Assembly: GCF_029433115.1 (NCBI RefSeq)
Contig: NZ_JARNTV010000003.1
Location: 1 to 64,000, forward strand
Direction of reading: 5' to 3'
Length of the DNA stretch: 64,000 nt
From: Sphingomonas sp. AOB5
Lineage (GTDB): Bacteria > Pseudomonadota > Alphaproteobacteria > Sphingomonadales > Sphingomonadaceae
The position numbers and the translations under genes were made by a program. Shown here piece after piece: positions 33,149 to 53,919 of the stretch. The notes under the pieces were generated by a model. That model worked only from the letters and a program-made list of their open reading frames with translations, ran no database searches and was not told the DNA's origin. Within the stretch, counting starts at the first letter, position 1. Every line of letters starts with the position of its first letter.

Positions 33149-33268
33149 CGTGATTTCCCTGTTATCTTCGTTGCTTGTGGTTGAAACGAGCGGGATCGAT
33201 TAAGGTTGCAAGAATATGAATCGGTTGTTCATCGCCGGTTCGGAATGGAGGCGGGACTGAAGACCGCA

Positions 33269-33886
33269 ATGCGCCCGCTCCTGCTGATCCTGCTGTCTGC
33301 CCTGCTCGCCGCCAGTGCGCCGCCGACGCCCCAGATCACGCTGGAAACCGCGGTGATTGCCGAGATCAACTATGCCCGCGCCAACCCGAAAGCCTATGCC
33401 AACCGGCTGCGCGAGTATCGCAAGGGGTTTCGCGGCAACACCGTCTACTACCCCGGCAACCGCGACGGGCTGTACACCTACGAAGGCGTGGCCGCGGTGG
33501 ACGAGGCGATCCGCTTTCTCGACCGCCAGACGCCGCTAGGCCCGCTCCGGCACGCCCCGTTGCTCGCCCGCGCCGCAAGGGACCATATCGACGAGCAGGG
33601 ACCGCGCGGCGTAACCGGGCATGAGTCTCGCAATGGCGACCGGGCGGCACAGCGGGTGCTTAAGCGCGGCGGCGGCACCTATGTGGCGGAGAACATCACC
33701 TATGGCCCGCCCAGCGCCGCGGAGGTGGTGCGCCAGCTGATCGTCGACGATGGAGTGCCCGGGCGCGGGCATCGGCGGGTGATCTATGCCGGGGAATTCC
33801 GTTTCGCCGGAGCAGCTTGCGGCGGGCACCGCGTCTATCGCCATATGTGCGTGATCGTCTCCGGCCGCACCGCTGACGGGCATTAG
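33269..33886 (+). CDS. Secreted CAP-domain (SCP-like) protein 1
   Basis: A 205-residue exported protein with signal sequence MRPLLLILLSALLAASA and a CAP/SCP domain. ITLETAVIAEINYARANPKA forms the first helix, LLARAARDHIDEQGPRGVTGHES supplies cavity histidines, and GVPGRGHRRVIYAGEFRFAGAAC closes the fold. Bacterial CAP proteins bind or cleave extracellular ligands, but the activity is rarely known. ATG 33269 is favoured by the signal peptide; an ATG at 33245 adds eight residues. The next gene but for a palindrome is a clear paralog. Confidence 0.8.
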   Translation: MRPLLLILLSALLAASAPPTPQITLETAVIAEINYARANPKAYANRLREYRKGFRGNTVYYPGNRDGLYTYEGVAAVDEAIRFLDRQTPLGPLRHAPLLARAARDHIDEQGPRGVTGHESRNGDRAAQRVLKRGGGTYVAENITYGPPSAAEVVRQLIVDDGVPGRGHRRVIYAGEFRFAGAACGGHRVYRHMCVIVSGRTADGH

Positions 33887-33962: not shown

Positions 33963-34114
33963 CGGTGCCGCCTCCGGTTCGACCACGCCGAACCGGCTGA
34001 AAAGGTAAACCGTGAATCTACGGACTGTTTTGGGCGGGCGTTAACCGGCTAAAGGCAAGTCTCTGATTTCCATCCGCGAATTGGTCGCGGATCGGTTCCC
34101 GGGGGGGAACTCGC

Positions 34115-34807
34115 TTGACCCTGTTCGCTCGCGCCGCCGCTGCGCTCGGCATGTGCTGGCTTGCCCTGTGCGGCATGTCCGATCCCAAGGCCACCGCCTC
34201 GCTGGAAGCCGGGGTGCTCGAGCGGATCAACTTCGCCCGCCAATATCCGCAGGAATATGCCGAACTGCTGCGCGACTATCGCCGCTTCTTCGAGGGCAAT
34301 ATCCTGTTCCTGCCCGGCGATCCCAACGGGCTGATCACCCGCGAGGGGCCGCGCGCGGTGGACGAGGCGATCGACTTTCTGGAGGCACAGGCGCCCCTGC
34401 CCCCGCTGACCCGCGCGGAGATACTGACCCTGGCCGCGCGCGACCATGCCGATATGCAGGGCCCGGTGGGCGGCACCGGCCATGTCTCACGCGACGGCGC
34501 CAGCCCCGGCGAGCGGGTGAAACGGCGCGGCGGCGACATCTATGTCGGCGAGAGCATCTCCTATGGCCATGCCGATCCGGACAGCGTGGTGATGCAGTTC
34601 ATCATCGACGACGGCGTGCCTTCACGCGGCCACCGCAAGCTGATCTTCGCCAGCGACTTCCGCTACGCCGGGGTCGGCTGCGGTTCGCATCGCAGCTATC
34701 GCCACATGTGCGTGGTAGACCTGAGCGGCACCGCAACCGGCGCGCCGGTGATGCCCGAATGGGCCAGCGCGCAGGGCGGGCAGCTGTTCCGGATGCCGGA
34801 GCGCTAA
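34115..34807 (+). CDS. Secreted CAP-domain (SCP-like) protein 2
   Basis: A 230-residue paralog of the preceding CAP protein. Shared elements include LEAGVLERINFARQYPQEYA, LTLAARDHADMQGPVGGTGH, RGGDIYVGESISYG and GVPSRGHRKLIFASDFRYAG. TTG 34115 follows GGGGGGG and begins a hydrophobic leader (LFARAAAALGMCWLALCG). The C-terminal extension GAPVMPEWASAQGG is absent from the first copy. The two probably differ in ligand or expression; no function is assigned. Confidence 0.78.
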   Translation: MTLFARAAAALGMCWLALCGMSDPKATASLEAGVLERINFARQYPQEYAELLRDYRRFFEGNILFLPGDPNGLITREGPRAVDEAIDFLEAQAPLPPLTRAEILTLAARDHADMQGPVGGTGHVSRDGASPGERVKRRGGDIYVGESISYGHADPDSVVMQFIIDDGVPSRGHRKLIFASDFRYAGVGCGSHRSYRHMCVVDLSGTATGAPVMPEWASAQGGQLFRMPER

Positions 34808-34818
34808 GGGGAGCGGGC

Positions 34819-35220
34819 TTACTCGTTATAACCGTACGCGATGGTCTGGGTCGTGCCGGCGGTGATGGTGAAACGGCGCGATTGTGACTGGAGCCAGTTG
34901 CAGCTGCTCGCGCCATTGGACTGAACATTGCAGGTGCCCGAACGCCCGACCATGATATCCCAGCAACCCGCACCGAGCGGGAAGCGCATGCTGGAATTAT
35001 TGTAGATCACCTGCTGGTTGCCCAGCCGGTTGAGACCATGGCTCATCGCGGAGCAGCGCGAGAGGGTGACGACATCGATCCCGACGCCGCTCTGGTTCTG
35101 GACGATGAGCCAGCCCGACGCCTCACCCTGACGGACGAGATCGCCGCCGGTGAGCGTGGCGCAGCCGGTGAGTGCGGCCGCACCCGAAAGCGCGGCGAGG
35201 AACGAAAGACGCAGTTTCAT
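34819..35220 (-). CDS. Small lipoprotein
   Basis: A 133-residue protein with a lipobox (AALTGC, cysteine at about residue 20) after a short signal peptide MKLRLSFLAALSGAA. The mature part contains SGWLIVQNQSGVGIDVVTLSRC and GAGCWDIMVGRSGTCNV with four further cysteines, and ends TQTIAYGYNE. It reads like a small immunoglobulin-like or carbohydrate-binding type domain, but no family is recognised. It converges with the second CAP gene. Confidence 0.7.
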   Translation of the reverse strand: MKLRLSFLAALSGAAALTGCATLTGGDLVRQGEASGWLIVQNQSGVGIDVVTLSRCSAMSHGLNRLGNQQVIYNNSSMRFPLGAGCWDIMVGRSGTCNVQSNGASSCNWLQSQSRRFTITAGTTQTIAYGYNE

Positions 35221-35648
35221 GAACGATGCCCCTGTGTTGTTCGCGATTCGACAGTGATGAAATGCTTTCGACCTGGCGGATACCCCCATTTGGAGGATGC
35301 GGGCGTCGAAGTGCAAAGTCCCGCAACTCACGCCATTCGTGACCTTTGCCCGAGGGGAAATGCGCATTTCGGCACTGGCGGGGAGCGCCATGCGCGGGGT
35401 GGTTCGACGGTTCAAAGAGCTGCGATGACGGGAGCAGGCGGACTCCAACATTGCAAGCTCGTCCCTTTGGACAAGTTGGATGAGCGGGATTGTGCTCCGG
35501 CGAAGGCCGGAGCGTTGGCGAGTGCCCGGGCTCTTTCCAAGGCTCCGGCCTTCGCCGGAGCACAGCTACTTGTCGCAGGCGGCGGCCGCGGCGTTAACCG
35601 GAGCCAAGCCCTTTGCTGATAAGACGCGGGCATCCAGGAGAAACGCTC
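35221..35648. other. Intergenic region with a REP-like inverted pair
   Basis: This stretch holds no supported gene. Its main feature is a pair of 23-bp arms at 35491-35513 and 35542-35564 in inverted orientation. Each arm is itself a hairpin (GCTCCGGC-GAAG-GCCGGAGC and the mirror), giving a double-hairpin REP/BIME-like unit. The rest contains the promoter region of the lipoprotein gene and the ribosome site GGAG for 35649. Confidence 0.7.
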
Positions 35649-35825
35649 ATGAAGTTCGTCGAATTCCATTCCCGCGGCGGCAACTATTATGTCGTGGTAG
35701 AGAACATCGCCTATCTGCGCACCGACGAGAACGGGCAGACCAAGATCGGGATGATCGGCGGGGATTCGCTGCTGGTGGTGGGATCGATGGCGGAGATTGC
35801 GGCGAAGGCGAGCGCGGAGGGGTAG
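35649..35825 (+). CDS. Small protein of unknown function
   Basis: A 58-residue protein (FVEFHSRGGNYYVVVENIAY, then IGGDSLLVVGSMAEIAAKA) predicted as a short beta sheet with a C-terminal helix. The pattern resembles FlbD-like small proteins in shape, but there is no flagellar context and similarity is weak. ATG 35649 follows GGAGAAACGCTC. Confidence 0.6.
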   Translation: MKFVEFHSRGGNYYVVVENIAYLRTDENGQTKIGMIGGDSLLVVGSMAEIAAKASAEG

Positions 35826-35900
35826 GCGTCTTCCGGCTCTCCGGTCGACAATGCACCGGGGCATGTCACATCATGCGACGACCCTGCCAATGGAGTCGAC

Positions 35901-36365
35901 ATGACACTCACCATCCGCCCGCCAGGCGATGCCGGCGACCGTGACTTCATCCGTGACCTGAATGCGCGCCTGACCGGCGTTATCGAAGCTCCGGCCCATT
36001 CCAGAGAGGAGGTCGTGTCCTTTCAGGAGCGTTTCACCGCGGCCTGGGAAGACGAAGCGGGCGATAGTGCGACCTTCATCGCCGCCAGCCAAGACGGAGA
36101 GCGGCTTGGCTATATCAATGTCCGGGGAAGCACCGATGAGATCGCCGACGAGAGATGCGGCTATATCGCGCTTCTGGCCGTGGTGGCTCATGCCGAGGGC
36201 GAAGGCGTGGGGCAGTCGCTTCTGGAAGCGGCCGAAACATGGTCGCGGCAAATGGGTTTCCGCCGGCTCGCGCTGGATGTCTTCGCCAGCAACCATCGCG
36301 GGCTACGCTTCTACGAGAAGAGCGGGTTCCAGCCGGAAACCATCCGGGTGATCAAGCAGCTCTGA
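35901..36365 (+). CDS. GNAT-family N-acetyltransferase
   Basis: A 154-residue acetyl-CoA-dependent acetyltransferase. Motif A is in IALLAVVAHAEGEGVGQSLL (about residues 91-110), followed by LALDVFASNHRGLRFYEKSGF near the C-terminus, the standard GNAT end. The acceptor is unknown. It lies alone, convergent with the mutL-tail remnant and the 102-residue gene. Confidence 0.85.
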   Translation: MTLTIRPPGDAGDRDFIRDLNARLTGVIEAPAHSREEVVSFQERFTAAWEDEAGDSATFIAASQDGERLGYINVRGSTDEIADERCGYIALLAVVAHAEGEGVGQSLLEAAETWSRQMGFRRLALDVFASNHRGLRFYEKSGFQPETIRVIKQL

Positions 36366-36389
36366 GAACCAGGCACGCGCACCCTGCCC

Positions 36390-36440
36390 TCACTTCCGCC
36401 CGAACAGCTTCTCGATATCGCCGTGCGCCGGTTTCACCCA
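36390..36440 (-). pseudogene. Second copy of the mutL 3' end (51-bp remnant)
   Basis: This 51-bp segment matches the last 51 bp of mutL (36792-36842) at about 47 positions. On the minus strand it encodes WVKPAHGDIEKLFGRK and a TGA, the MutL C-terminus with one changed residue. It is not part of any intact gene. It lies 14 bp beyond the 3' end of the small gene at 36454-36762, so that gene is bracketed by direct repeats. Confidence 0.82.
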
Positions 36441-36453
36441 AGTGGAAGCAGGC

Positions 36454-36762
36454 TTAAAGGTCCACCCGCACCTCAGCGACCGTTCCAAACGCTTCCAAGC
36501 GCGCGACCCTGAAACCAGCGCCCTTTAGGCGATCGGCTTGTCCGTCTTCCGAGTCGGAGACGATGACCCAAAGCGGCAGATCGTCATAATCGCTGTCGCC
36601 CATTGAAACTTTGATTTCAGTTTCTGCCCGAAAATATCGCCCCTCGGCATAATGGCTGCTTTCGCGCTCTTCGCGGCGTGATGCCCCAAAGGCATCGAAG
36701 ACCATCGATGCACAAATTGCGCTGTCGGCACAGTCGTCATGGGAGGCCGCCAAAACCAACAT
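36454..36762 (-). CDS. Unknown protein lying between duplicated mutL tails
   Basis: A 102-residue acidic protein with no recognised family: MLVLAASHDDCADSAICASM, a middle rich in charged residues (RREERESSHYAEGRYF) and a C-terminal alpha/beta part (LPLWVIVSDSEDGQADRLKG). ATG 36762 is preceded by GAGAGGTGG. The gene is 29 bp downstream of the mutL stop on the same strand and sits between two copies of the mutL 3' end, which suggests it arrived by insertion or recombination. Confidence 0.55.
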   Translation of the reverse strand: MLVLAASHDDCADSAICASMVFDAFGASRREERESSHYAEGRYFRAETEIKVSMGDSDYDDLPLWVIVSDSEDGQADRLKGAGFRVARLEAFGTVAEVRVDL

Positions 36763-36791
36763 TCTTCCACCTCTCGAACTGAGTTAGGCGA

Positions 36792-38567
36792 TCACTTCCG
36801 TCCGAACAGCTTCTCGATATCGCCATGCGCCAGCTTCACCCATGTCGGCCGCCCGTGGTTGCATTGCCCCGAGTGCGGCGTGACTTCCATCTCGCGCAGC
36901 AGGGCGTTCATTTCGGCGACAGACAGGATGCGGCCGGCGCGGACCGAGCCGTGGCAGGCCATGGTCGAGGCGACGTGATCGAGGCGTTCCTTCAGCGACA
37001 GGGCTTCGTCGAAGCTGGCGAGTTCGTCGGCGAGATCGGTGACGAGGCCGTGCACATCGCCCTGCCCCAGTGCGGCGGGCGTGGCGCGGACCAGCATGGC
37101 GCGGGGGCCGAAGCGTTCGAGTTCGAGGCCGAATGCGGCAAGTTCGGCGGCGCGGGATTCGAGGCGGTCGCAACCGGGTTCATCGAGTTCGACGACTTCG
37201 GGGAGGAGCAGCGCCTGACTGGCGACGCCGCCGCCCTGCATCGCACGACGCATCCGTTCGAGGACGAGGCGTTCGTGCGCGGCGTGCTGATCGACCAGCA
37301 CTAGGCCGTCTTCGGCTTCGGCGACGATATAGGTCTTGGCGACCTGGCCGCGGGCGACGCCGAGGGGGAACTGCGTGGCCTCGGGGATCGGCGCGTAGGC
37401 GGGTTCGGCGCGGGCCTGTGGCGGGGCGATGAAGCTGGGACGGCGTTCGTAGACGGCCGAACCGGAATAGGTCTGGACTTCGTTGGCGGAGGCAGGCCGT
37501 TCGTCCCAGAGCTGCGGCACCGGTGCCTGCGGCTCGCTTTGCCACATCCCCAGTGCAGCCTCGCTCGGGCGCTGGACGCTGCGGTGGCCGGCTTCGTCGA
37601 GCGCGCGGCGCAGGCCGCTGACGATCAGGCCGCGGACCAGCGACGGATCGCGGAAGCGGACTTCGGTCTTGGCGGGATGAACGTTCACATCGACCTGATC
37701 GACCGGCACGTCGAGGAACAAGGCCACCACCGGATGGCGGTCGCGCGCCAGCATCTCGGCATAGGCGCCGCGGATCGCGCCCATCAGCAGGCGGTCCTTC
37801 ACCGGCCGTCCGTTGACGAACAGATATTGGTGATCGGCCACGCCGCGATTGAAAGTCGGCAGCCCGGCGACGCCGCCCAGCACGATCCCTTCGCGCTCGA
37901 AATCGATGGCGACGCTGTTTTCGACCAATGCGCGATCGGTGAGGCCCGCGACGCGATCGGGCCGCGATTCCTCGCCCTGCACGCCCAGCACGCGGCGGCC
38001 GTCATGCTCGACCGAGAAGGCGACGTCCGGACGCGCCATGGCGAGGCGCTTCATCACGTCGAGGCAGGCGGCATATTCGGAACGGGCCGAGCGCATGAAC
38101 TTGCGCCGGGCAGGCACGCGGGCGAAGAGTTGCTCGACGCGGACGCGGGTGCCGGGCGGGAACGCGGCGGGGCCTTCGGCGACCAGTTCGCCATTGTCGA
38201 CGGTTCGCGACCAGCCTTCGGCGCCCCGCACCCGGCTTTCGATGCTCAGCCGCGCGACGCTGGCGATGGAGGGCAGCGCTTCGCCGCGAAAACCCAACGT
38301 CGTGACCTGATCGATCTCGTCGTCGGGCAGCTTGGAGGTGGCATGGCGTTCGAGTGCGAGGGCCATTTCGGCGGGGTTCATCCCGCATCCGTCGTCGGTC
38401 ACTTCGATCAGTTCGGTGCCGCCGCCGCCAAGGCGCACGGCAACGCGGGACGCGCCCGCATCGATCGCGTTTTCGACCAGTTCCTTCAAGGCGCTGGCAG
38501 GTCTTTCGACCACTTCGCCGGCGGCAATTCGATTGACGAGATGTTCGGGGAGACGGCGTATTGACAC
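36792..38567 (-). CDS. mutL: DNA mismatch repair endonuclease MutL
   Basis: The 591-residue matchmaker and nickase of mismatch repair. The N-terminal GHKL ATPase shows LPEHLVNRIAAGEVVERPAS, KELVENAIDAGA, VTDDGCGM and TTLGFRGEAL. The C-terminal domain has the endonuclease motif VLVDQHAAHERLVLERM plus SVRAGRILS and QCNHGRPTW, so this MutL is of the nicking type, as expected without MutH. GTG 38567 gives the canonical start SIRRLPEHLV. The last 51 bp are duplicated downstream. It is divergent from mreB. Confidence 0.95.
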   Translation of the reverse strand: MSIRRLPEHLVNRIAAGEVVERPASALKELVENAIDAGASRVAVRLGGGGTELIEVTDDGCGMNPAEMALALERHATSKLPDDEIDQVTTLGFRGEALPSIASVARLSIESRVRGAEGWSRTVDNGELVAEGPAAFPPGTRVRVEQLFARVPARRKFMRSARSEYAACLDVMKRLAMARPDVAFSVEHDGRRVLGVQGEESRPDRVAGLTDRALVENSVAIDFEREGIVLGGVAGLPTFNRGVADHQYLFVNGRPVKDRLLMGAIRGAYAEMLARDRHPVVALFLDVPVDQVDVNVHPAKTEVRFRDPSLVRGLIVSGLRRALDEAGHRSVQRPSEAALGMWQSEPQAPVPQLWDERPASANEVQTYSGSAVYERRPSFIAPPQARAEPAYAPIPEATQFPLGVARGQVAKTYIVAEAEDGLVLVDQHAAHERLVLERMRRAMQGGGVASQALLLPEVVELDEPGCDRLESRAAELAAFGLELERFGPRAMLVRATPAALGQGDVHGLVTDLADELASFDEALSLKERLDHVASTMACHGSVRAGRILSVAEMNALLREMEVTPHSGQCNHGRPTWVKLAHGDIEKLFGRK

Positions 38568-38686
38568 GACCGACGCTCTAGACCAAGCGAAGGCATTCCG
38601 CGACCCGCATCCGCCAGAAATCCAGGACTGGATTCGATCCATCCCGGAGGGTTGGGGATAAATATTTGTGCGAACAGCGGCGCTGA

Positions 38687-39757
<1,071 letters not shown>

Positions 39758-44419: not shown

Positions 44420-44495
<76 letters not shown>

Positions 44496-44563
44496 CCTTC
44501 TTCTAGTAAAAACAGTAACTTACACAGTGTTAACGGTCGCTCCGTGGTCTGCTAATTTTGCGT

Positions 44564-44594
44564 GCTAGCACTATGCTAGCTGCACACGGCTAGA
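44564..44594. promoter_or_regulatory. Left-end CTAGC repeat cluster (candidate recombinase arm sites)
   Basis: GCTAGCACTATGCTAGC (44564-44580) and GGCTAG (44588-44593) lie about 70 bp inside the left end. The same 17-bp design, GCTAGCAC-N-AT-N-CTAGC, occurs near the right end at 53738-53754. Shared repeats at both ends are typical of integrase or excisionase arm-type sites. Confidence 0.6.
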
Positions 44595-45105
44595 CCTCGA
44601 AGTACTCGCGCCGCCCGCTCAACGCGGAGAGCACCGAGCGGCACATGTGCAAGACGTCATGCTTCGTGCCGTCCGGCGTCTCCACCACCACGGTCTCTGG
44701 CACATCCGACCAAGTCGACCCGTCCGAGAAATACGAGCCATCGCTAAATGCCGCGCCCTTGCCCCTCGTCAGATGCTCCGCACGGAGTCCCACGAGTGCG
44801 GTGTTAGGATGACGCGTAAGTTCCACGTGCTTGCCCGCGTTCGCTATGGCCCGAACAGTGTGGAACTCAGGAATGGTCGCGGAAATCTCGTCCGCCACTT
44901 CGTGAGCTTTGCGACCCCGGACATGAGCAACCACATCGGCGAAGTGATAGAGGATGATGCAACTCGAAATTGCCAGCTCGTAGCTTGTCGGTTCAGCCTC
45001 GAAGCGGTGGCAAAGGGGTTGCGCGAGTTCGCTCAGATAGACTTCGGGGTTCGAGAATGCCATGCGGCAAATCTCGCTGGGTTCCGCGCCGAGATCAAGG
45101 TTCAT
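44590..45105 (-). CDS. Accessory protein of unknown function
   Basis: A 171-residue, mostly helical protein. ELAISSCIILYHFADVVAHV and TVRAIANAGKHVELTRHP are the best features; the RAIANAGKHVEL stretch has the look of a HEPN-type helical protein, though an Rx4-6H active site is not clean. A small beta region (GSYFSDGSTWSDVPETVVVE) follows. ATG 45105. It is the leftmost gene of the element, the usual position of cargo. Confidence 0.6.
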   Translation of the reverse strand: MNLDLGAEPSEICRMAFSNPEVYLSELAQPLCHRFEAEPTSYELAISSCIILYHFADVVAHVRGRKAHEVADEISATIPEFHTVRAIANAGKHVELTRHPNTALVGLRAEHLTRGKGAAFSDGSYFSDGSTWSDVPETVVVETPDGTKHDVLHMCRSVLSALSGRREYFEV

Positions 45106-45144
45106 AACGGCGCCTCGCCCCCGACGGAGCGAGGCGCTTGCGAT

Positions 45145-45612
45145 TCACCAATCGTCGCGTCGAGGTGAGGTCATAACGCATCGTGCGACGGCATCCGCAG
45201 AAGTCTTGAACGCATCCTCAGCGCCGCGCCACTGCGATCCGGGCCATTTGCCGATCGGTCCCCATCGACCTTGGTTGAACCGCTCAAGCTCCGTCTGCTC
45301 GATGCGGAAACGTCCATCCCGCGCTTCAAAGGTGAACCGGCTGCGGAGCTGCCACCGCATTGAGCCACCTTGCTCGATAGCATTTCGGGCGACGATGATA
45401 CCACCTTCAAGGTCGCTGCTGATAATGAGTTGAGCATCGACGGTGCCGGGCGAGAGGTGTTGCGAGATGCACGTGCTAGCCCGGGTGGCGATCTCACGTG
45501 GTGTGCCGGTAGTTTGGTACACCTCGCTTGCCACAGACGTCAGGTATTCGGCGGCCCAAGCGGGGGAGCTAAGCCCAGCCATAATCAATGTGATCACCCA
45601 ATAGCGTCGCAT
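45145..45612 (-). CDS. Exported protein with DUF4468-like beta domain
   Basis: A 155-residue protein with signal peptide MRRYWVITLIMAGLSSPAWA. The mature part (CISQHLSPGTVDAQLIISSD, then RWQLRSRFTFEARDGRFRIE) has the strand pattern of DUF4468 (TBP-like fold) proteins, and ends ADAVARCVMTSPRRDDW. ATG 45612 follows GGAAGGG. It is divergent from the XRE regulator, sharing a control region with two dyads. Role unknown; an exported cargo protein is unusual for a phage satellite. Confidence 0.6.
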   Translation of the reverse strand: MRRYWVITLIMAGLSSPAWAAEYLTSVASEVYQTTGTPREIATRASTCISQHLSPGTVDAQLIISSDLEGGIIVARNAIEQGGSMRWQLRSRFTFEARDGRFRIEQTELERFNQGRWGPIGKWPGSQWRGAEDAFKTSADAVARCVMTSPRRDDW

Positions 45613-45631
45613 TTGATAGCCCTTCCAATTC

Positions 45632-45675
45632 GGGAAACTTCCCAACAGTAACCCGATTAGGGATTATAGTCCCTA
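45632..45675. promoter_or_regulatory. Two dyads between divergent genes: candidate XRE operator
   Basis: TAGGGATTATAGTCCCTA (45658-45675) is an 18-bp dyad resembling controller-protein boxes with a central TATA. GGGAAACTTCCC (45632-45643) is a second, perfect-arm dyad. Both lie between the exported protein start (45612) and the XRE start (45709), so one repressor could control both promoters. Confidence 0.65.
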
Positions 45676-45708
45676 GAGAATATATGCCCGAGGGCGTTCC
45701 TTCGCGCC

Positions 45709-45921
45709 GTGATCGACTGGCGCGCCATTGTGGGAACCAACGTGCGACGCGCTCGCCAAGCAGCCGGGCTGACACAAGAGCAGTTGGCTCTCGATGCCAA
45801 AATTGATCTTACATACGCGGGCGGTATCGAACGCGGACGAAGAAACCCAAGCGTGCAAGTGCTTGCCCGGATCGCCGACGCGCTCGGCGTAGAGCCCTCA
45901 GATCTGCTCAAACGCGACTGA
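45709..45921 (+). CDS. XRE-family HTH regulator (controller-like)
   Basis: A 70-residue protein consisting of one HTH_3 domain: RRARQAAGLTQEQLALDAKI, then GIERGRRNPSVQVLARIADA. This is the size and form of restriction-modification controller proteins and small phage repressors. The start is GTG 45709. An 18-bp dyad 33 bp upstream is the probable autoregulatory operator. No restriction-modification genes accompany it. Its 3' end overlaps the convergent gene by 24 bp. Confidence 0.85.
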   Translation: MIDWRAIVGTNVRRARQAAGLTQEQLALDAKIDLTYAGGIERGRRNPSVQVLARIADALGVEPSDLLKRD

Positions 45922-46134
45922 ACTGCTAAAGTGAATCAGTTGCCGCTCCCATCGCGCAAGGCTGCACAGCACTACCGAGAAATCCGCGCGGTCGAGCTTG
46001 CCCGCTTCCATGCCAGCCTCGCACTCAGCGGCGAACGCCTCGAAGGAGCCGAAGGCGACAGCGAACGGTGAGCGGACCGGGGCGCGGACCTGCTCCAGCC
46101 GCTGCACCCGCGCAAGCATGGCGCGGACCGACAC
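45898..46134 (-). CDS. Small protein of unknown function
   Basis: A 78-residue protein (SVRAMLARVQRLEQVRAPVR, then FAAECEAGMEAGKLDRADF) with a helical, phage-like composition. GTG 46134 lies 3 bp after the stop of the preceding gene; an ATG at 46121 is an alternative. It is the last gene in a five-gene minus-strand block. Confidence 0.55.
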   Translation of the reverse strand: MSVRAMLARVQRLEQVRAPVRSPFAVAFGSFEAFAAECEAGMEAGKLDRADFSVVLCSLARWERQLIHFSSSVAFEQI

Positions 46135-46137
46135 GTG

Positions 46138-46335
46138 TCAGCCCTCCTTCCCCATATGCAGGACGCGGTCGAACTGCACGGCGAGGTAGCTTTCCCGGTA
46201 TCTCGCGTTGGCGAGATGGCGGCGGGTAAGGCCTTCCTGTAGCTCGCGCTGCTTTTCGACTTCTAGGCGTTCGCGCTCCGAGAGCGGTAGATCGGCTAAG
46301 CCCGGAGGTACTGCGTTGTGAGGCACGTCTTTCAC
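46138..46335 (-). CDS. Small helical protein of unknown function
   Basis: A 65-residue, highly charged protein with a predicted long helix (SERERLEVEKQRELQEGLTR). GTG 46335 overlaps the preceding stop (GTGA), so it is translationally coupled. Not recognised. Confidence 0.6.
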   Translation of the reverse strand: MKDVPHNAVPPGLADLPLSERERLEVEKQRELQEGLTRRHLANARYRESYLAVQFDRVLHMGKEG

Positions 46336-46706
46336 GGTCGGAATACTCCCATGGCAGTGAGCAGTGCGACGGCGTCACCCCGAGCGTCCGCGTCGCTGCT
46401 CTCGCAAACGACCTGCGTGAGCGTGTCGATGATCTGCTGGCGCACTGCTGCGTCGATCGGCTCGGGGTGATCGGGGAGGCCGATGCCGAGCAGGTTGCGA
46501 ACCTCGGTCCCCGTCATCGGCAGCACTTTCACCTGGCACCGATGGTCGCGGAGGAAGGCTTCGGCCTTCGTCAGCGCAGCCTCGTAGTCCAGGATCGGGT
46601 CGACGGTGGCGCGCCTGCCATCGATGAAGGTCACGGCGAACAGGTCGAGCTTGCCGGGCCTGATCGTGGTCACTCGGTGACGCGGCTCCCAAGATGCGTA
46701 GGTCAT
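46332..46706 (-). CDS. Protein of unknown function
   Basis: A 124-residue protein. An N-terminal beta region (DLFAVTFIDGRRATVDPILD) precedes a helical C-terminus (AVRQQIIDTLTQVVCESSDA). ATG 46706 overlaps the previous gene's stop by four bases. Part of the phage-like block; no family recognised. Confidence 0.6.
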   Translation of the reverse strand: MTYASWEPRHRVTTIRPGKLDLFAVTFIDGRRATVDPILDYEAALTKAEAFLRDHRCQVKVLPMTGTEVRNLLGIGLPDHPEPIDAAVRQQIIDTLTQVVCESSDADARGDAVALLTAMGVFRP

Positions 46707-47161
46707 ACTTGCTTGGCCTCCAATGTCATGATGCGCGCCTCAAGCTCCTCGACGGCGCGAGCGTCGCTGAGGGTGCCGATGGCGTCGATGATCTGCTTGC
46801 CCACCTCCGGCGAGACCGCCCCGGCGGACATTGCTTCCAGAACCTGCTCGATCTGACGGGCGATTGGGGCCGACGCGTCGAAGCCGAACTGCACCGGATA
46901 GGTCTCGGGCCGGAGCGCCGGAGCGATCCTGCTGAGCACGATGGAGCAGGCCTGTAGGTCGCCCTCCTTCGCCGCTGCGGTGACCACGCGGGCAATCTCA
47001 AGACCCTCGTCCATGAGCGCCTGAGTCACCTTAGAGCGCTTATCGATGATGCCTCTGGGCCTGCCCTTCGGGTTCGGCGACGGCATCCCCTTGACCCATC
47101 GGGCGGGGGTCGAGGTTGGCACGAAGTTGGTCATCCACTCGGGTTGCGTCGGCTCGGTCAT
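46703..47161 (-). CDS. DUF5681-type phage-associated protein
   Basis: A 152-residue protein with the PNPKGRPRGIIDKRS signature near residue 35 and a following helix ALMDEGLEIARVVTAAAKEG. This matches the short basic motif of DUF5681 proteins, often found near terminase or DNA-handling genes of phages and gene transfer agents. ATG 47161 is chosen over a GTG eight codons upstream. A C-terminal coiled coil (RAVEELEARIMTLEAKQV) suggests oligomerisation. Confidence 0.65.
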   Translation of the reverse strand: MTEPTQPEWMTNFVPTSTPARWVKGMPSPNPKGRPRGIIDKRSKVTQALMDEGLEIARVVTAAAKEGDLQACSIVLSRIAPALRPETYPVQFGFDASAPIARQIEQVLEAMSAGAVSPEVGKQIIDAIGTLSDARAVEELEARIMTLEAKQV

Positions 47162-47188
47162 CGGACACCTAATCTCAACAACCACCGA

Positions 47189-47902
47189 TCAGACCGTCGG
47201 CTCGATCTTCAGCGCCGCAAGCGCCTGCTCGTTCGCCTTGCTGAGCGCGGCAACGATGCCCGGCTTGGCCCCGACCGGCTTGGCGAACTGCTCGTGGACG
47301 ATCGGAGCAATGCGGTCGAGCCGGTCGCGGAAGCGCTGCATCACGTCGAGCCGTCGCACGAGGTCGGGCCGCCTCTTCTGGTGGTAGAGGCGTAGGTAGT
47401 GATCGTGGTCCAGGGGGGTCAGGCCACTCAGGAACGATTGGGCGCCAAGGATGGCGGTCAGCGTCGGTTCGTCGTCCCCCTCAAGCGTCGCGTTCATGAA
47501 GGCCTCGCGCTCGCTGCGGTCCAGCCCGCGCGCGAACGCTCGCACCTCGCCGTTGAGCGACCCGAGGCCAGCCTGCTCCGTCAGCGGCCGCATCAACTGC
47601 TCCTCGGTGTGGGCGATGGTGGCGGCGAGGTCCCTCTCTGCGAGGTCGAGCCGCTTCAGGATCCGCAGCTTGTGCTCCTCGGCCACCTGCCCGACGTGGA
47701 GGATGCGCTGCTCCTCGGTGAAGGCTCCGTTCGAGTCCGCCAGCCGCCGGGCATCGTGGACCTTCCCAAGCGTGACGTATGCGTCGTTCATCGCGTTGAC
47801 GACGCCTCCGACAAACTGGGCGTTTTCCTCGTAGCCTTCGATGGCCCGGTAGGTCTCGGGGTCGAGCGCAGGCGATACGCGGGTGTCGATCTTGTCGGGC
47901 AT
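47189..47902 (-). CDS. Helical phage-type protein of unknown function
   Basis: A 237-residue protein, nearly all alpha-helical and charged (RILKRLDLAERDLAATIAHT, RLYHQKRRPDLVRRLDVMQR). ATG 47902 follows GGAGCGCATC. It heads the minus-strand block 47902-45898 whose members are separated by at most 27 bp, so they are one operon. Not recognised. Confidence 0.6.
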   Translation of the reverse strand: MPDKIDTRVSPALDPETYRAIEGYEENAQFVGGVVNAMNDAYVTLGKVHDARRLADSNGAFTEEQRILHVGQVAEEHKLRILKRLDLAERDLAATIAHTEEQLMRPLTEQAGLGSLNGEVRAFARGLDRSEREAFMNATLEGDDEPTLTAILGAQSFLSGLTPLDHDHYLRLYHQKRRPDLVRRLDVMQRFRDRLDRIAPIVHEQFAKPVGAKPGIVAALSKANEQALAALKIEPTV

Positions 47903-48100
47903 GATGCGCTCCAAGGCTTGATACGGCTTGTATTGCGCTATTGTTGCGCTGTTCACGCATAGGTCCGCTAGCGATTTTTGTTGCTGAACAGGTGCTTGCA
48001 TCTGTTCCAGTAGCCGTGGCAGCAATACTGGACATTTGTGGGCCGCTTGATTGCTGAAGTTATGTCGGGCAGTATCGGTCTCTGTTTGGGGGTTACTAGG

Positions 48101-48571
48101 ATGACGAATAGGGTCCACATCGACGCGCCTGCTGGCGTGGTCGAAATTGAAGGCGAGAAGGATTTCGTCGAGGGACTTCTTGCGAAGCTCTTTCCGCTCC
48201 TTGAGGAGGCTGGTTTCGGCAGCAAACGTCCAAGGGGAGCCGCGCCCCCGTCGGACGAGGAGCCTGATGACACCGGCGAAGAGGATGGAGATGAGGTTGG
48301 GGCTGGCGCCGGAAAACCCAAAATTAAGCGGAAGCGAGGCGTTACTCCAAAGGGTCACTCCTGCGCCGACAGAATGATGACGCTTAAAGAGGAGGGTTTT
48401 TTCAAAACGCAGCGCGGCACTGGGGACATAGTGGGCGGCCTTGCTTCAAAGGGGTTCACGCACAAGAGCAATCAGGTCGCTGCCGCTGGCGAATCCCTGT
48501 TCAAAAGAGGGATGCTTCAGCGCACCAAAGACGGCAACGGACCTTTCAAGTATTTCTGGGATCGGGACTAG
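48101..48571 (+). CDS. Putative defence-module protein A (wHTH-like C-terminus)
   Basis: A 156-residue protein in two parts. The N-terminus (RVHIDAPAGVVEIEGEKDFV then EGLLAKLFPLLEEAGFG) is a short beta-alpha module seen in various prokaryotic proteins of unknown role. An acidic linker (SDEEPDDTGEEDGDEVG) follows. The C-terminus (MTLKEEGFFKTQRGTGDIVG, GFTHKSNQVAAAGESLFKRG) is winged-helix-like and ends KYFWDRD. ATG 48101 is used because upstream starts add only an unlikely leader. The stop is 3 bp before the next gene, so the two form a unit. Function is not known; the pairing is the main clue. Confidence 0.6.
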   Translation: MTNRVHIDAPAGVVEIEGEKDFVEGLLAKLFPLLEEAGFGSKRPRGAAPPSDEEPDDTGEEDGDEVGAGAGKPKIKRKRGVTPKGHSCADRMMTLKEEGFFKTQRGTGDIVGGLASKGFTHKSNQVAAAGESLFKRGMLQRTKDGNGPFKYFWDRD

Positions 48572-48574
48572 GGG

Positions 48575-49348
48575 TTGAGCCTTCCCACACTCAGCGCCGC
48601 GCTGGGCGCAATCCCCGCTGGGCTCCGCGACCCTCTTATCGACGAGTTCAATCAGGCGCTTGATGAGTACCGCGCCGCCGATTGGGAGAAAGTCGGTCTC
48701 AAAGCGGGCAAGTTTTGCGAGGTCGCCTATTGCGTATGCGCAGGCCATGCGACGGGAAGTTATCAGGCCGCGCCTTCCAAGCCCGCGAACTTCCCAAAGG
48801 CATGCCAAGACTTAGAACCGCACAACAAGACGAAGGGGCGGTCGCTGTGTATGCAAGTCCCGAAGGTCTTGGCGGCGCTGTACGAATTGCGAAATAACCG
48901 TGCGATCGGTCACGTCTCGTCCGAGATTAGCCCTAACCACATGGACGCCGAACTGTACCTCCGCGGCATGAAGTGGGTGATGGGCGAGTTCGTCCGCAAT
49001 TATTCCAACCTCGCGCTCGCCGACTCCTACGCCGTCGTCGAAGCTGTGACTGCGCGAACCTTCCACATGGTCTGGTCGAGCGGGGACGTGCGGCGGGTGC
49101 TTGAGCCGGCCAAGTCGGCGGGTCAGAAGGTGCTGATCCTGCTGTATGCTGAAGGCAAGCCCGTGACGGTCGCTACGCTGCAATCCTGGGTGGAATACAA
49201 GAATGGCACCGACTTCAAGCGCAAGGTGCTCCGAGACCTGCACAAGAAGGCGCTTGTTCACTTTGATGAGAGCGCCGCGACCGTCCAGATTCTGCCAACG
49301 GGGCAGGCCTTAGTCGAGAAGTCGGGCCTGCTGATAACCACGGGCTAG
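48575..49348 (+). CDS. Putative defence-module protein B (HEPN-like motif, wHTH-like C-terminus)
   Basis: A 257-residue protein starting at TTG 48575. The helical N-terminal half contains LYELRNNRAIGHVSSEISPN near residues 103-121, with R106 and H113 in an R-x6-H arrangement like HEPN ribonucleases, and a following NHMDAEL. The C-terminal third (VLILLYAEGKPVTVATLQSW, RDLHKKALVHFDESAATVQI) is a winged helix. I recall similar RNN-x4-H proteins in diverse bacteria without an assigned role. Its 3-bp spacing to protein A and its location in a tRNA-borne element suggest an antiphage or toxin-type module; this is inference. Confidence 0.6.
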   Translation: MSLPTLSAALGAIPAGLRDPLIDEFNQALDEYRAADWEKVGLKAGKFCEVAYCVCAGHATGSYQAAPSKPANFPKACQDLEPHNKTKGRSLCMQVPKVLAALYELRNNRAIGHVSSEISPNHMDAELYLRGMKWVMGEFVRNYSNLALADSYAVVEAVTARTFHMVWSSGDVRRVLEPAKSAGQKVLILLYAEGKPVTVATLQSWVEYKNGTDFKRKVLRDLHKKALVHFDESAATVQILPTGQALVEKSGLLITTG

Positions 49349-49358
49349 CCGGGTCGCT

Positions 49359-49484
49359 GTTACCGAGAGCCCCTAGACCCCCAGTCGAGTAACAACAGTA
49401 ACATCGGTAACATCGCCTCTTCAGTCGTTACCGAGGTTACCGATGTAGCCCAGCGTGGTCATAGCAGGCGGCGGTAACACCGAA
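49359..49484. repeat. Iteron-like GTTACCGA repeats beside the RepA-like gene
   Basis: GTTACCGA or its complement recurs at 49359-49366, 49398-49415 (two tandem GTAACATCG), 49427-49434, 49436-49445 and near 49473. CATCGGTAAC (49402-49411) and GTTACCGATG (49436-49445) form an exact dyad. Clustered short repeats at the 3' side of a RepA-like ATPase gene resemble an origin or operator array. Confidence 0.65.
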
Positions 49485-49485
49485 G

Positions 49486-50784
49486 CTAGGGCAGCTTCGC
49501 GTAGAGTCGCCTGTTCTGCGGCCCGGTCGCGAATCCGACCTTGTAGACGAACGGGGTCATGGCGAGCATGTCGTCCGCCTTGCCCCACTCGCGACGGCTG
49601 AACGTCCGGCCTGCCTTCGCCTCTACGCAGTCGCGCGTAACGGGCTCGCTGGTTGCCTCAACCATCTGACTGACCAGCGTCACCATCTGGCTGACGACGC
49701 TCGGCCTGTGGTCACCGCCACCGCTCTCCTCGCCTTCCGCAGGCTGAGGCTTGGTAGCCGAGTGGAACAGTTCGCTGGCTTCCTCTTCGCCCCAGACAAC
49801 CTCCCCAAACCGGGTTTGGCACAGCACCGAGTCAGCCCCTTCGTCGCGCTCGTGAAGCGTGTGGACCGGCTCCGTCGTATAGGTCGCCGCGAACCGCTGT
49901 GTCAGGTTGGACTTGGCGACCAGCATCACACAGGCGAACTCCTCCCGGCGGTCGCGCGCGTGGACGAACGACAGGCGCGGCGAGTTGGTCCAAGCGCTCG
50001 CCCCTGCCACGGTGTCAGCGAAGTGGTCGTGCTTCCCCTTGTTGGAGTGACCGATGATGGCGATGGTGACGCCGTGCTTCTCGGCCAGCGCTTGGAGGTA
50101 GCCGAGCAGGCGCTTCACGCTGGCGTCGTCATTCGGGCTCTCGCCCTTCGCCCACGTAGTCAGCCCCACGGCGGTGTCGAGTACGACAAGGCGAAGCGGC
50201 TTCGGCGGGATGTAGGTTGAGTCGAACTCGCCCTTGGCGGCGATGATCGCTGGCTCGAGGTGTTCGTACACGTTGAAGTTCGATCCGATGACGCGACCGT
50301 GGGCGTCGGTCTTGCTTGCCACCGCCTTGACGACGGCCAGCGTTCTTTCGACGCCGCCGATCTTCATGTGCCTGACCTTGATCCAATCGGTAGGCTCCTC
50401 GACGCTGACCCAGAGGGTTGAGGCACCCACATCGCTGATCTGTGCAGCGAGAGACGCGAGGAACGACGACTTGGCCGACCCGCCTCGTCCGAAGAATCCA
50501 ACGACACACGCGCTTGGTAGGTAGGGGTCAACGAGGTACGACAACCTCACGGTGGCCGTGTCTTTTGCCATAGCGAACTCCAATGTGATGCTGTCGGGGC
50601 TGGCGATAGGCTGGGGAATCGGAGTGCCCACACCCCGCTTCAGTCGCTCCTTCTCAAGCCCGGCCTCCTCAGCGGCGCGGAGGTTCTCGATCATCTTAGC
50701 GCGCTGTTGCTCGTCGGCGCGCTTTGACTCGGCACTGCGAAAGTCCGGTTGCGGACTTATCGGGCTATCCGGTAAATTGCTCAT
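49486..50784 (-). CDS. RepA-like AAA ATPase (replicative helicase type)
   Basis: A 432-residue RecA-fold ATPase of the RSF1010 RepA / AAA_25 type found in plasmids, phages and satellites. Walker A is GFFGRGGSAKSSF near residues 97-109, Walker B is LRLVVLDTAVGLTTW, and AIIGHSNKGKHDHFADTVAG includes the sensor region. The C-terminus (TFSRREWGKADDMLAMTPFV) looks winged-helix-like. ATG 50784 is chosen; an upstream GTG at 50925 adds a basic, low-complexity leader. It probably replicates the excised element. Confidence 0.78.
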   Translation of the reverse strand: MSNLPDSPISPQPDFRSAESKRADEQQRAKMIENLRAAEEAGLEKERLKRGVGTPIPQPIASPDSITLEFAMAKDTATVRLSYLVDPYLPSACVVGFFGRGGSAKSSFLASLAAQISDVGASTLWVSVEEPTDWIKVRHMKIGGVERTLAVVKAVASKTDAHGRVIGSNFNVYEHLEPAIIAAKGEFDSTYIPPKPLRLVVLDTAVGLTTWAKGESPNDDASVKRLLGYLQALAEKHGVTIAIIGHSNKGKHDHFADTVAGASAWTNSPRLSFVHARDRREEFACVMLVAKSNLTQRFAATYTTEPVHTLHERDEGADSVLCQTRFGEVVWGEEEASELFHSATKPQPAEGEESGGGDHRPSVVSQMVTLVSQMVEATSEPVTRDCVEAKAGRTFSRREWGKADDMLAMTPFVYKVGFATGPQNRRLYAKLP

Positions 50785-50946
50785 TGCTGGAAGTGCTCCA
50801 ATGAAGCGGCGGGATGGTGATGCGTCCCGCCGCTTTCGTGAGTTCGGCTGTGACTGCGCTGGAGCGTCGGCTCGGTCTGGACCTAAGCGATTCCAATGCT
50901 TCGGTTTCAGCGAGGCATCCCGCACATTGATGGTTTGAGGGTCGGC

Positions 50947-51201
50947 CTAAGCTGCCGCCTGCTCGCTCGTGCTGCGCTTCGCGCCGGAGGCCAGCCAAGC
51001 CAGAACGTCTCGCTCCGCGTACCAGACGCGGCGGGTTCCGGGCGGGCTGAAGAAGCGCGGACCCTCCCCGCGGAAGCGGTACTGGTCCACGGTGTTGGGA
51101 TGCACTCCCAAGATGCCAGCTACCTCTCGGCTATCGAGGGGGCGCCGCTTGGGCTCATAGTTGAACAGTTCACATAGCTGCTCGAAGGTCGGCTCGGTCA
51201 C
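50947..51201 (-). CDS. AlpA/MerR-like excisionase or regulator
   Basis: An 84-residue protein with the helix-turn-helix RPLDSREVAGILGVHPNTVD and the wing FFSPPGTRRVWYAERDVLAWL, the pattern of AlpA/excisionase HTH_17 proteins. GTG 51201 follows GGGAG at good spacing. In satellites such proteins switch on the replication and excision genes. It lies 162 bp upstream of the RepA-like gene on the same strand. Confidence 0.75.
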   Translation of the reverse strand: MTEPTFEQLCELFNYEPKRRPLDSREVAGILGVHPNTVDQYRFRGEGPRFFSPPGTRRVWYAERDVLAWLASGAKRSTSEQAAA

Positions 51202-51380
51202 GGAGGATACTCCCGCGAAATTGTGCGCGCGAGAGACCCAGCGGAGCAACGGGTGCAGGCCGTATCAAGGTGCGCGGCCTGTAAGCTAGCTGTAGCGTAA
51301 ACAAAGAGGCCGGTGTTTGATAATTTGTCGCCGATATGCGCGATCTGTTCTGGGTGGCGCAACGCAACCTCTGATGTATA

Positions 51381-51405
51381 GTGTGTATGGTTCAACTATA
51401 CACAC
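51381..51405. promoter_or_regulatory. Dyad overlapping the start of the 51387 gene
   Basis: GTGTGTAT (51381-51388) and ATACACAC (51398-51405) are perfect inverted arms separated by 9 bp. They span both candidate start codons (GTG 51381, ATG 51387), so a bound protein or an RNA hairpin would block expression. Confidence 0.55.
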
Positions 51406-51920
51406 GGTACATCGCATTGACTGACTTCCCAATCCACAAGCCGCCACGAGCGAAGCCTAAGCCGGGCTCGCTCCCGCTCAACGACACGCACGCGGACGAT
51501 GGACCTCATCCGGCGCAAACTGCGCCCCCTCCTTGGGTTGATCTTAAGTTTCGGGATGCTCCTTGGAATCAGCCGGAGCCGCCTCCAGCGAAGCGGGCCG
51601 TCAGCTACGGGAAGCTGCGAACAGCGCGCCGCAAGGCGGAGCAACTTGCCGCTGTGGTCAGAGATGAAGCGTTTGACGACTGGGTGCGGCGGTGCCTCGT
51701 GGCTGCCGATCGCCCAGACGAGTGGATGCGAGCGAACGAACTCTACGAGAACTACCTCCAGCGGGCAGCGCGCCACGGAGTGTCTCGGAGCGCGCGTGCG
51801 CTGTCGCGTGAGGTCGTGGCCACAGGGACGCGCTGGGGCAAGATGATGGGATCGCTGTTCGCGAAGACCCGGCGCGCGAAGGGCTGGTACTACGCCGTGC
51901 GCCTCAAGCGGGGCGCGTAA
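51387..51920 (+). CDS. Basic protein with wHTH-like C-terminus
   Basis: A 177-residue basic protein. A proline-rich N-terminus (PHPAQTAPPPWVDLKFRDAP) precedes helical segments (SYGKLRTARRKAEQLAAVVR). The C-terminal module (WMRANELYENYLQRAARHGV to KGWYYAVRLKRGA) resembles the wHTH tail of phage or plasmid primases and VapE proteins. It is divergent from the AlpA-like gene. ATG 51387 or GTG 51381. A DNA-binding role in replication or control is likely; no family is firmly recognised. Confidence 0.6.
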   Translation: MVQLYTRYIALTDFPIHKPPRAKPKPGSLPLNDTHADDGPHPAQTAPPPWVDLKFRDAPWNQPEPPPAKRAVSYGKLRTARRKAEQLAAVVRDEAFDDWVRRCLVAADRPDEWMRANELYENYLQRAARHGVSRSARALSREVVATGTRWGKMMGSLFAKTRRAKGWYYAVRLKRGA

Positions 51921-52017
51921 CCACCGGCTGCGGGCGACGCGGGGCAGCGTGGGGCGCAGGGGGCAGCACGCCGCCGCTTGCACTGGCGCTCCGCGACGGT
52001 CAGCGCTGTGCGCGGCG

Positions 52018-52395
52018 CTATGCCGAGAAGTAGGTGATGGAACGCGGCTCGCCGGTCAGGAACGGGTTGGCCCATGTCCGTGACATCCCATCATGCCAGA
52101 CGTGGAACGGCACGCCGGGGAAGATCGCCATGATCGTGGAGGGGTTCGACAGGGGCACGATTCGCTCGACCTTCTTGCCGTGCACCCTGCTGACCTTTGT
52201 AGCTGTCCCCCGGAGTTGCTCGCCGACGGTGGCCGTCCAGACCTCCATGTTGTGCGTGTAGGTGATGGAGTAAATGCGCTGGCCGAGCGGCGGAACAGAA
52301 CGGCCGGCCAGCCGGGCTAGTTCGGCGTAGGCATCCTCCTGCTTCTCGGCTACGACCTTGGGCACGAAGAACGCGGGCGGTCCACTAGACGACAC
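52018..52395 (-). CDS. Protein of unknown function next to the integrase
   Basis: A 125-residue protein, mainly beta (RIYSITYTHNMEVWTATVGE, IMAIFPGVPFHVWHDGMSRT), starting at GTG 52395 after GGGAG. It follows the integrase by 24 bp on the same strand. Not recognised. Confidence 0.6.
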   Translation of the reverse strand: MSSSGPPAFFVPKVVAEKQEDAYAELARLAGRSVPPLGQRIYSITYTHNMEVWTATVGEQLRGTATKVSRVHGKKVERIVPLSNPSTIMAIFPGVPFHVWHDGMSRTWANPFLTGEPRSITYFSA

Positions 52396-52419
52396 GGCAG
52401 GCTCCCTAGTCAGCGACGA

Positions 52420-53718: not shown

Positions 53719-53736
53719 GCTATTCCTCCAGTCTGA

Positions 53737-53857
53737 TGCTAGCACCATACTAGCAAGCTAGGAACAGCTACGACAAGGAACCGCAAACTAGCAACGGCTC
53801 AAATGGTTGAAATACCAAGGGTTTGTCAGGTAGGACAAGCTAGCACAATCTAGCCGT
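53737..53857. promoter_or_regulatory. Right-end CTAGC repeat cluster (candidate recombinase arm sites)
   Basis: TGCTAGCACCATACTAGCA starts at 53737, AAGCTAGG at 53755, ACTAGCAACG at 53788, and AGCTAGCACAATCTAGCC begins near 53838. The first shares the GCTAGCAC-N-AT-N-CTAGC design with the left end. At least five half-sites lie between integrase and attR, as expected for arm-type and Xis sites; some may also repress int. Confidence 0.65.
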
Positions 53858-53873
53858 GGCGTCTGATTCCAAA

Positions 53874-53919
53874 ACTCTTAATCAGCGGGTCCTTGGTTCG
53901 AGCCCAAGTGCGTCCACCA
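53874..53919 (+). repeat. attR: right 46-bp attachment repeat
   Basis: An exact copy of the tRNA-Lys 3' 46 bp. The D-arm and the 5' acceptor strand are absent upstream, so it is not a second tRNA gene. Confidence 0.95.

Follow-up and report, generated by a model that had tools for sequence, protein, structure and literature searches.

Integrative elements that enter gene 3′ ends, such as prophages, ICEs and IMEs, replace the end of their target gene, leave direct repeats at both borders and recombine at a common exchange point. The mutL cassettes that we describe here in Sphingomonas share the direct repeats and the exchange point, and in three genomes clearly also the replaced gene end; however, they measure hundreds of bases instead of many kilobases, and neither an integrase nor transfer genes were seen in them. 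They also resemble integron gene cassettes in their small size, their mostly orphan or immunity-type cargo, their single docking site and a recombinase that would be encoded off the cassette, but their site lies within a housekeeping gene and no arrays were seen. Integron attC sites carry RYYYAAC and GTTRRRY cores, and no attC-type core motif was noticed by eye in the mutL cassettes. A further related class is that of the CIMEs (cis-mobilizable elements), defined as remnants that have lost their integration and transfer genes and kept attL and attR (PMC5704250). The mutL inserts share this anatomy, with both borders and no integrase, but they are not visibly remnants: they turn up repeatedly in unrelated genomes, each time with one small gene or a few, and no accretion with ICEs or IMEs was seen. 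Finally, the SpyCI islands of Streptococcus pyogenes are described as site-specific mobile elements in the mutL 5′ end that switch mutL off (PMC4689407, PMC3430984, PMC4129442). The Sphingomonas cassettes have mutL as target in common with them, yet they take the 3′ end and leave the mutL frame intact. Integration at the 3′ ends of genes is already known, and so are CIMEs and, at the other mutL end, SpyCI; among the open-licence articles, at the level of their listings, no published description of mutL-end cassettes was found.

The locus lies in a stretch of 64,000 nucleotides from Sphingomonas sp. AOB5, hereafter the window. Its mutL gene is encoded on the minus strand at 36792-38564, with MutL_C, DNA_mis_repair and HATPase_c_3 of Pfam above cut-off, and the ORF possibly begins at an upstream start, reaching 38642. 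A sequence-only reading of this DNA had pointed out that the last 51 bp of mutL (36792-36842) are duplicated at 36390-36440 with about four changes. This was correct, and the direct repeat extends to 54 bp (36390-36443 and 36792-36845, 91% identity, start-to-start spacing of 402), with four of its five differences inside the 51 bp; it is the longest direct-repeat family within 34000-39000. Along mutL, on the minus strand, the stop codon at 36792 is followed by 348 bp containing an ORF of 102 residues and then by the second 54-bp tail. The proximal copy, on the attL side, is the last 54 bp of mutL, ends in TWVKLAHGDIEKLFGRK and a stop, and encodes WVKLAHGDIEKLFGRK. The distal copy, on the attR side, encodes WVKPAHGDIEKLFGRK and a stop, and is presumably the displaced native tail. 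From the repeat spacing and the exact register of a pair of related genomes described below (G250 and G251), the inserted unit would be 402 bp long (36390-36791, minus strand), made of the 348-bp interior and the distal tail. The GC content is 56.3% in the insert interior, 69.2% at the mutL end and 62.6% over about 1.5 kb downstream.

The ORF between the copies (36454-36762, minus strand) is in a different reading frame from the distal tail. As the sequence-only reading had stated, it belongs to no known family: the 102-aa protein matched no Pfam or PADLOC family, and among 295 Sphingomonas genomes only the window itself matched the gene strongly, which also agrees with the expectation that empty sites would lack it. 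Two weak matches (E 0.005 and 0.009) were dismissed, direct tblastn giving them no support. No relative of the protein held up among 100 relatives or in genome, viral, plasmid and phage collections, in searches limited to patterns or tblastn, and a structure predicted from the sequence alone is of low quality (mean pLDDT 49.9). In G236, whose MutL protein is the closest to that of the window (92%), a second tail copy is absent. About 10 bp past its mutL stop, its sequence already corresponds to window position 35458, so the window and this relative differ by more than the cassette. Close to this resumption point, at 35491-35564, the window has a spacer-less inverted repeat with 37-nt arms that are 89% complementary. 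Further along, two adjacent similar genes (33206-33886 and 34115-34807) are both matched by the same stretches of relatives.

We looked at how widely this arrangement recurs. As an estimate of chance, 992,863 bp (window and flanks) were compared with themselves, keeping pairs of 38-120 bp with at least 78% identity and lying 100-2,500 bp apart; only three other short direct-repeat pairs were found, none of them at a mutL end. When the mutL tails of 92 loci were each compared with the DNA downstream of the same gene, duplicated tails came to light in several further genomes. A mutL-tail profile run on 160 flanks (some genomes twice) detected second copies in 12 genomes at E<0.01, the best E in shuffled flanks being 0.76, and six additional filled genomes were found (G010, G208, G231, G106, G268 and G270). 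Altogether, 19 of 227 distinct Sphingomonas mutL ends are filled, 18 at E<0.01 and one weakly: in G259 the match is limited to the last 20 bp (E 4.9), and the cargo is related to that of G269. This rate is biased because part of the sites were fetched for their repeat matches, yet most of the 295 genomes are represented among the 227 sites, and the flank reaches at least 1.3 kb at 226 of them. The other 208 sites have no second copy, as anticipated for empty sites in relatives. All second copies are on the same strand, within 1.25 kb of mutL, and start at about the same mutL codons, start and end falling at identical codons in most filled genomes. The 102-aa gene, which had been proposed for a search at other mutL ends, had no strong match elsewhere in the genus; what recurs is the tail, present twice and enclosing different cargo in 18 further genomes.

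On a weak mutL tree (about 195 bp), 14 filled tips could be placed and their distribution requires 13 changes, when shuffled labels give a mean of 13.8 (range 12-14). The filled tips thus appear scattered, which would mean many separate events or a fast turnover. One pair of near relatives combines an empty site (G250) with a filled one (G251). Their flanks share 98.5% identity across 3,003 columns, and the flank past the G251 distal copy aligns from its first base with the flank past the G250 mutL stop. By this alignment, cargo and tail were cleanly gained or lost together, in a single instance. The G251 distal copy matches the G250 tail at 32 of 42 positions, too few for a recent displacement, and therefore G250 may just as well have lost the insert as G251 have gained it. 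At seven loci (L112, L119, L121, L152, L153, L164 and L202), the downstream DNA is conserved and differing, partly AT-rich stretches stand right after mutL; by its sequence, the mutL end looks like a hot spot even where no second tail copy is visible. In G280 (C1:397427-398091), the mutL match is spread over two frames, possibly a frameshift.

The two tails of one site are not always of the same origin. The C-terminus of MutL varies by clade (AHGDIEKLFGRK, SMTDVEKLFGRK, DFPDIEKLFARR, DMKSVAKLFGRT and others), with TWVK and KLF nearly constant. In G175, G269, G329 and G112, mutL ends in a copy written with T-rich codons (CTTTTTGG) that were absent from the other tails compared at that stage, and such a recoded tail stands at mutL in ten filled genomes. 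A pattern for it matched 10 of 295 genomes, always at a mutL end. Six of these were new, and in four of the six the tail is repeated at a distance of about 460-1,150 bp downstream; in G008 and G300 no second copy was found within 19 kb despite the recoded tail. Filled sites number 8 of 10 among the pattern tails vs 11 of 217 among the others (Fisher p=2e-8, four of the eight having shaped the pattern), which suggests that a recoded tail predicts insertion. The G300 tail is similar to the G159 and G261 tails, so it may be the native form of its clade, and the G008 tail resembles those of G055 and G260. G270 and G268 have unusual tails that fall outside the exact recoded pattern.

Both tails were compared with those of the nearest single-copy relatives over 42 positions. 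The distal tail was the better match in G175 (35/42 vs 25/42 for the proximal), G269 (35 vs 29) and G270 (32 vs 21). G329 (37, 35), G208 (30, 29) and G106 (30, 27) gave near ties, as did G112. The proximal tail was nearer the relatives in G231 and G268 (33-35 vs 26-29 for the distal), neither tail fitted well in G010 (27 and 23), and G193, G251, G038, G141 and G259 have a native-looking proximal tail with a distal tail that seems decayed. By this comparison, a foreign proximal tail with a native distal tail is clear in three genomes (G175, G269 and G270), where replacement of the mutL end can be taken as demonstrated; in the other filled genomes it is inferred, and there the distal copy could be the one brought by the element. 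The window tails match their nearest relatives at 35-39 (proximal) and 34-40 (distal) of 42 positions depending on the relative, and its polarity is taken from the family because the two copies are too alike for the native one to be called. The question of which copy lies nearer the mutL tail of relatives, raised by the sequence-only reading, was therefore answered in the three genomes, where the distal copy is native, and not in the window.

These tails bear directly on the alternative that had been kept open, a tandem duplication of the mutL end later partly deleted, and on a transposon target-site duplication. Either would produce direct repeats, and G143, with 53 of 55 positions alike, does resemble a fresh duplication. 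However, duplicated copies should be host-derived and alike at birth, and the foreign proximal and native distal tails of G175, G269 and G270 are incompatible with this; moreover, neither terminal inverted repeats nor a transposase were seen by eye in the inserts. We consider both duplications highly improbable. The original proposal, in which the inserted DNA takes over the 3′ end of the gene it enters, is supported by these foreign proximal tails, by the G250/G251 pair and by the other cargo in 18 genomes. Site-specific integration that swaps the mutL 3′ end for a tail borne by the element, with the recombinase acting in trans, is in our judgement the likely explanation of these sequences.

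To locate the exchange point, we took 163 single-tail loci as reference and counted the bases that are rarer than 5% there in the ten recoded-tail filled genomes, which represent at most nine lineages, G231 and G268 being related. Over tail positions 1-12, 13-18 and 19-60, the proximal copies hold 5, 1 and 71 rare bases and the distal copies 62, 7 and 46; for G175, G269 and G270 alone, the counts are 1, 1 and 28 for the proximal and 17, 2 and 2 for the distal. In both copies the switch thus falls on the GTGAAG of CTGGGTGAAGCT, after tail position 12 and before position 19. The arm adjoining the distal copy is also shared: GCTTCCA is found in the window (G000), G175, G269, G193 and G208, with GCTTGCA in G212 and GCTTTAC in G010, and GGTTGAC is found in G143, G329 and G112. 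In the window, this putative element arm lies at 36444-36450 (minus strand) and reads (T)GCTTCC before the AC of the copy. When 16 junctions are averaged, the arm zone agrees with GCTTCACC, which is GGTGAAGC inverted, at 5.06 of 8 positions, compared with 3.76 (sd 0.22) for controls within the inserts, the highest of 500 being 4.5. Native mutL left arms at 235 other loci score 4.75 in the same inverted-repeat test; therefore attB itself would be a weak inverted core, and arm and host are poorly separated. From these junction statistics and the exchange point, we propose a recombination-site core at 36431-36449 of the window (minus strand), a weak inverted repeat GCTTCCACTT-GGGTGAAAC. An inverted core is the substrate layout expected for a tyrosine recombinase.

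The same data make it difficult to explain the locus by homologous recombination only, in which the cargo-plus-tail DNA of a relative would arrive by natural transformation and recombine in the 54-bp tail. A tail of 54 bp can act as a short homology, and the G143 copies are nearly identical. Yet this process predicts neither an exchange point confined to about 6 bp in many genomes, nor recoded tails that end exactly at one codon, nor shared distal-junction arms, and it leaves the original joining of cargo to tail unexplained. We regard it as improbable, although less so than a duplication, and retain site-specific integration.

Insert and distal copy together measure from 155 to about 1,220 bp. 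In G041 the copies are separated by 101 bp with no evident gene, G010 has at least two ORFs, and the typical insert carries a single small gene without a recombinase. The interior GC content ranges from 51.8 to 66.1% and is below that of the mutL end and below that of the downstream DNA in 13 of the 13 inserts measured. Cargo mostly differs between filled sites: G143 carries a relative of the Imm26 immunity protein, G329 a glyoxalase/VOC protein, G106 a DUF7010 protein, and G259 a DUF6386 protein, as does G269 by DNA similarity. G112 and G038 form a second related pair besides G269 and G259. The rest of the cargo had no family above cut-off among the part of the ORFs that was scanned, and PADLOC gave no match for nine cargo proteins. 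We rejected the idea that the distal copy provides the coding end of the cargo gene: the main ORF enters the copy in G251, and overlapping frames enter it in G270, G329 and G175, but the ORF of the window does not.

Several recoded-tail inserts have in addition a post-stop motif of about NCGRCTTA and inner repeats that flank the cargo. With an inner-repeat profile, the left repeat was detected in five inserts, at 53-58 bp from the stop, and the right repeat in four; the repeats are absent from the window insert. We compared G231 (L308) and G268 (L241) over the first 570 bp past mutL: their element ends (76 and 64 bp) are 89% alike and their flanks 91.6% and 95.5% alike, whereas the cargo between the hairpin-like inner repeats is unlike. 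This one pair suggests an exchange of cargo at the inner repeats. In seven relatives, the DNA further downstream is 93-97% alike and other DNA adjoins mutL. That the inner repeats might be a general dispersed repeat was rejected, since a profile from 13 of them matches nine times (E<0.01) within inserts, where it is circular, and nowhere else in 1.39 Mb. A looser regular expression gave two matches, both in inserts, vs six in shuffled DNA, and the exact pattern was found in 1 of 61 genomes (G003). There, at C5:321152-321621 (L366/L367) and away from mutL, two near-identical 27-bp hairpin repeats of the inner type lie in the same orientation, 416 bp apart.

The inserts could also be decayed remnants, that is full-size integrative elements or prophages with an integrase, reduced to one or a few genes between attL and attR in the manner of a CIME. 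This would yield an identical att anatomy, and the distal copies are indeed often decayed. Chance deletion, however, would hardly give 19 cases, nearly all of 0.15-1.2 kb, with both borders kept and no integrase locus in the scanned flanks, and G231 and G268 hold the same ends around different cargo. Such decay is therefore unlikely, though it is the least unlikely of the alternatives to site-specific integration of small cassettes.

For integration in trans, a recombinase has to be sought elsewhere. No integrase was found in the inserts, and a motif scan, which recovers 12 of 13 PF00589 loci, recognised none in the mutL flanks over 0.8-19 kb; two matches there were judged false, one with no Pfam family (L029) and the other in a hydrophobic, membrane-like frame (L263). 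A helper far from mutL is possible, either XerC/D or the integrase of a phage or ICE located elsewhere. Among 25 of the 30 integrase loci of five filled genomes, which were read, a single group was present in all five; presumably this group is XerC/D, as its size fits, and no helper candidate emerges from it. The tyrosine recombinase of the window belongs to another element, and no link to mutL was seen. This element, an integrative one of the classical type, lies at the tRNA-Lys gene, the last 46 bp of which (44450-44495) are repeated exactly at 53874-53919, so that it spans 44450-53919; it encodes an integrase of 442 aa (52420-53748; Arm-DNA-bind_3 above cut-off, Phage_integrase just below) and an AAA_25 protein (49486-50925).

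A parent element with an integrase was not found in pattern-limited searches of viral, phage, plasmid and genome contigs. The mutL-tail patterns had no match in viral contigs or in phages, and their one plasmid match is a mutL gene of S. parapaucimobilis on an 880-kb replicon. A distal-junction pattern run on all genome contigs gave three matches, which fit G329, G175 and G269. Across 396 genomes of the order, the recoded-tail pattern matched 14 genomes, four of the genus and ten others; the latter matches are all at mutL ends without a clear second copy, one of them having just 124 bp of flank. G515, from another genus, combines a recoded tail with a similar post-stop motif and has no second copy within 8.7 kb.

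Altogether, the comparison of these genomes indicates that the Sphingomonas mutL 3′ end is a recurrent target of tiny mobile pieces that leave mutL readable, the insert in the window being one of about 19 cases, with a single insertion point, constant orientation, precise insertion, an intact mutL frame and a common exchange point. That these inserts form a recurrent family without integrase is what goes beyond the sequence-only reading. In the mechanism we propose, the element would bring its own version of the mutL tail, so that after insertion mutL would read into the element tail with its frame whole, and the original tail would be pushed to the far side of the cargo, where it would decay. 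Strands would be exchanged by a tyrosine-type recombinase, supplied in trans, at the weak inverted repeat around GGTGAAGC. The element might travel as a circle or as a passenger in a larger vehicle, and its cargo would consist of dispensable accessory genes of the immunity or orphan type. More tentatively, and with considerable doubt, this could be an integron-like cassette economy without a visible integron, in which the mutL end would serve as a docking port throughout the genus for integrase-less cassettes that replace the mutL end, preserve the protein and depend on a recombinase in trans, one sub-family swapping the cargo enclosed by two inner hairpin repeats and keeping its element ends in place, as G231 and G268 might illustrate.

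Such cassettes would be overlooked by scans keyed on integrases or on long islands. The recoded tails provide a signature, a gene end with foreign codons close to a native copy, for which all other genes can be scanned, and through them it becomes testable what moves integrase-less elements. For Sphingomonas, the mutL cassettes represent a possible route by which orphan and immunity-type genes may spread in very small units, a conserved repair gene offering them its end as a safe landing site.
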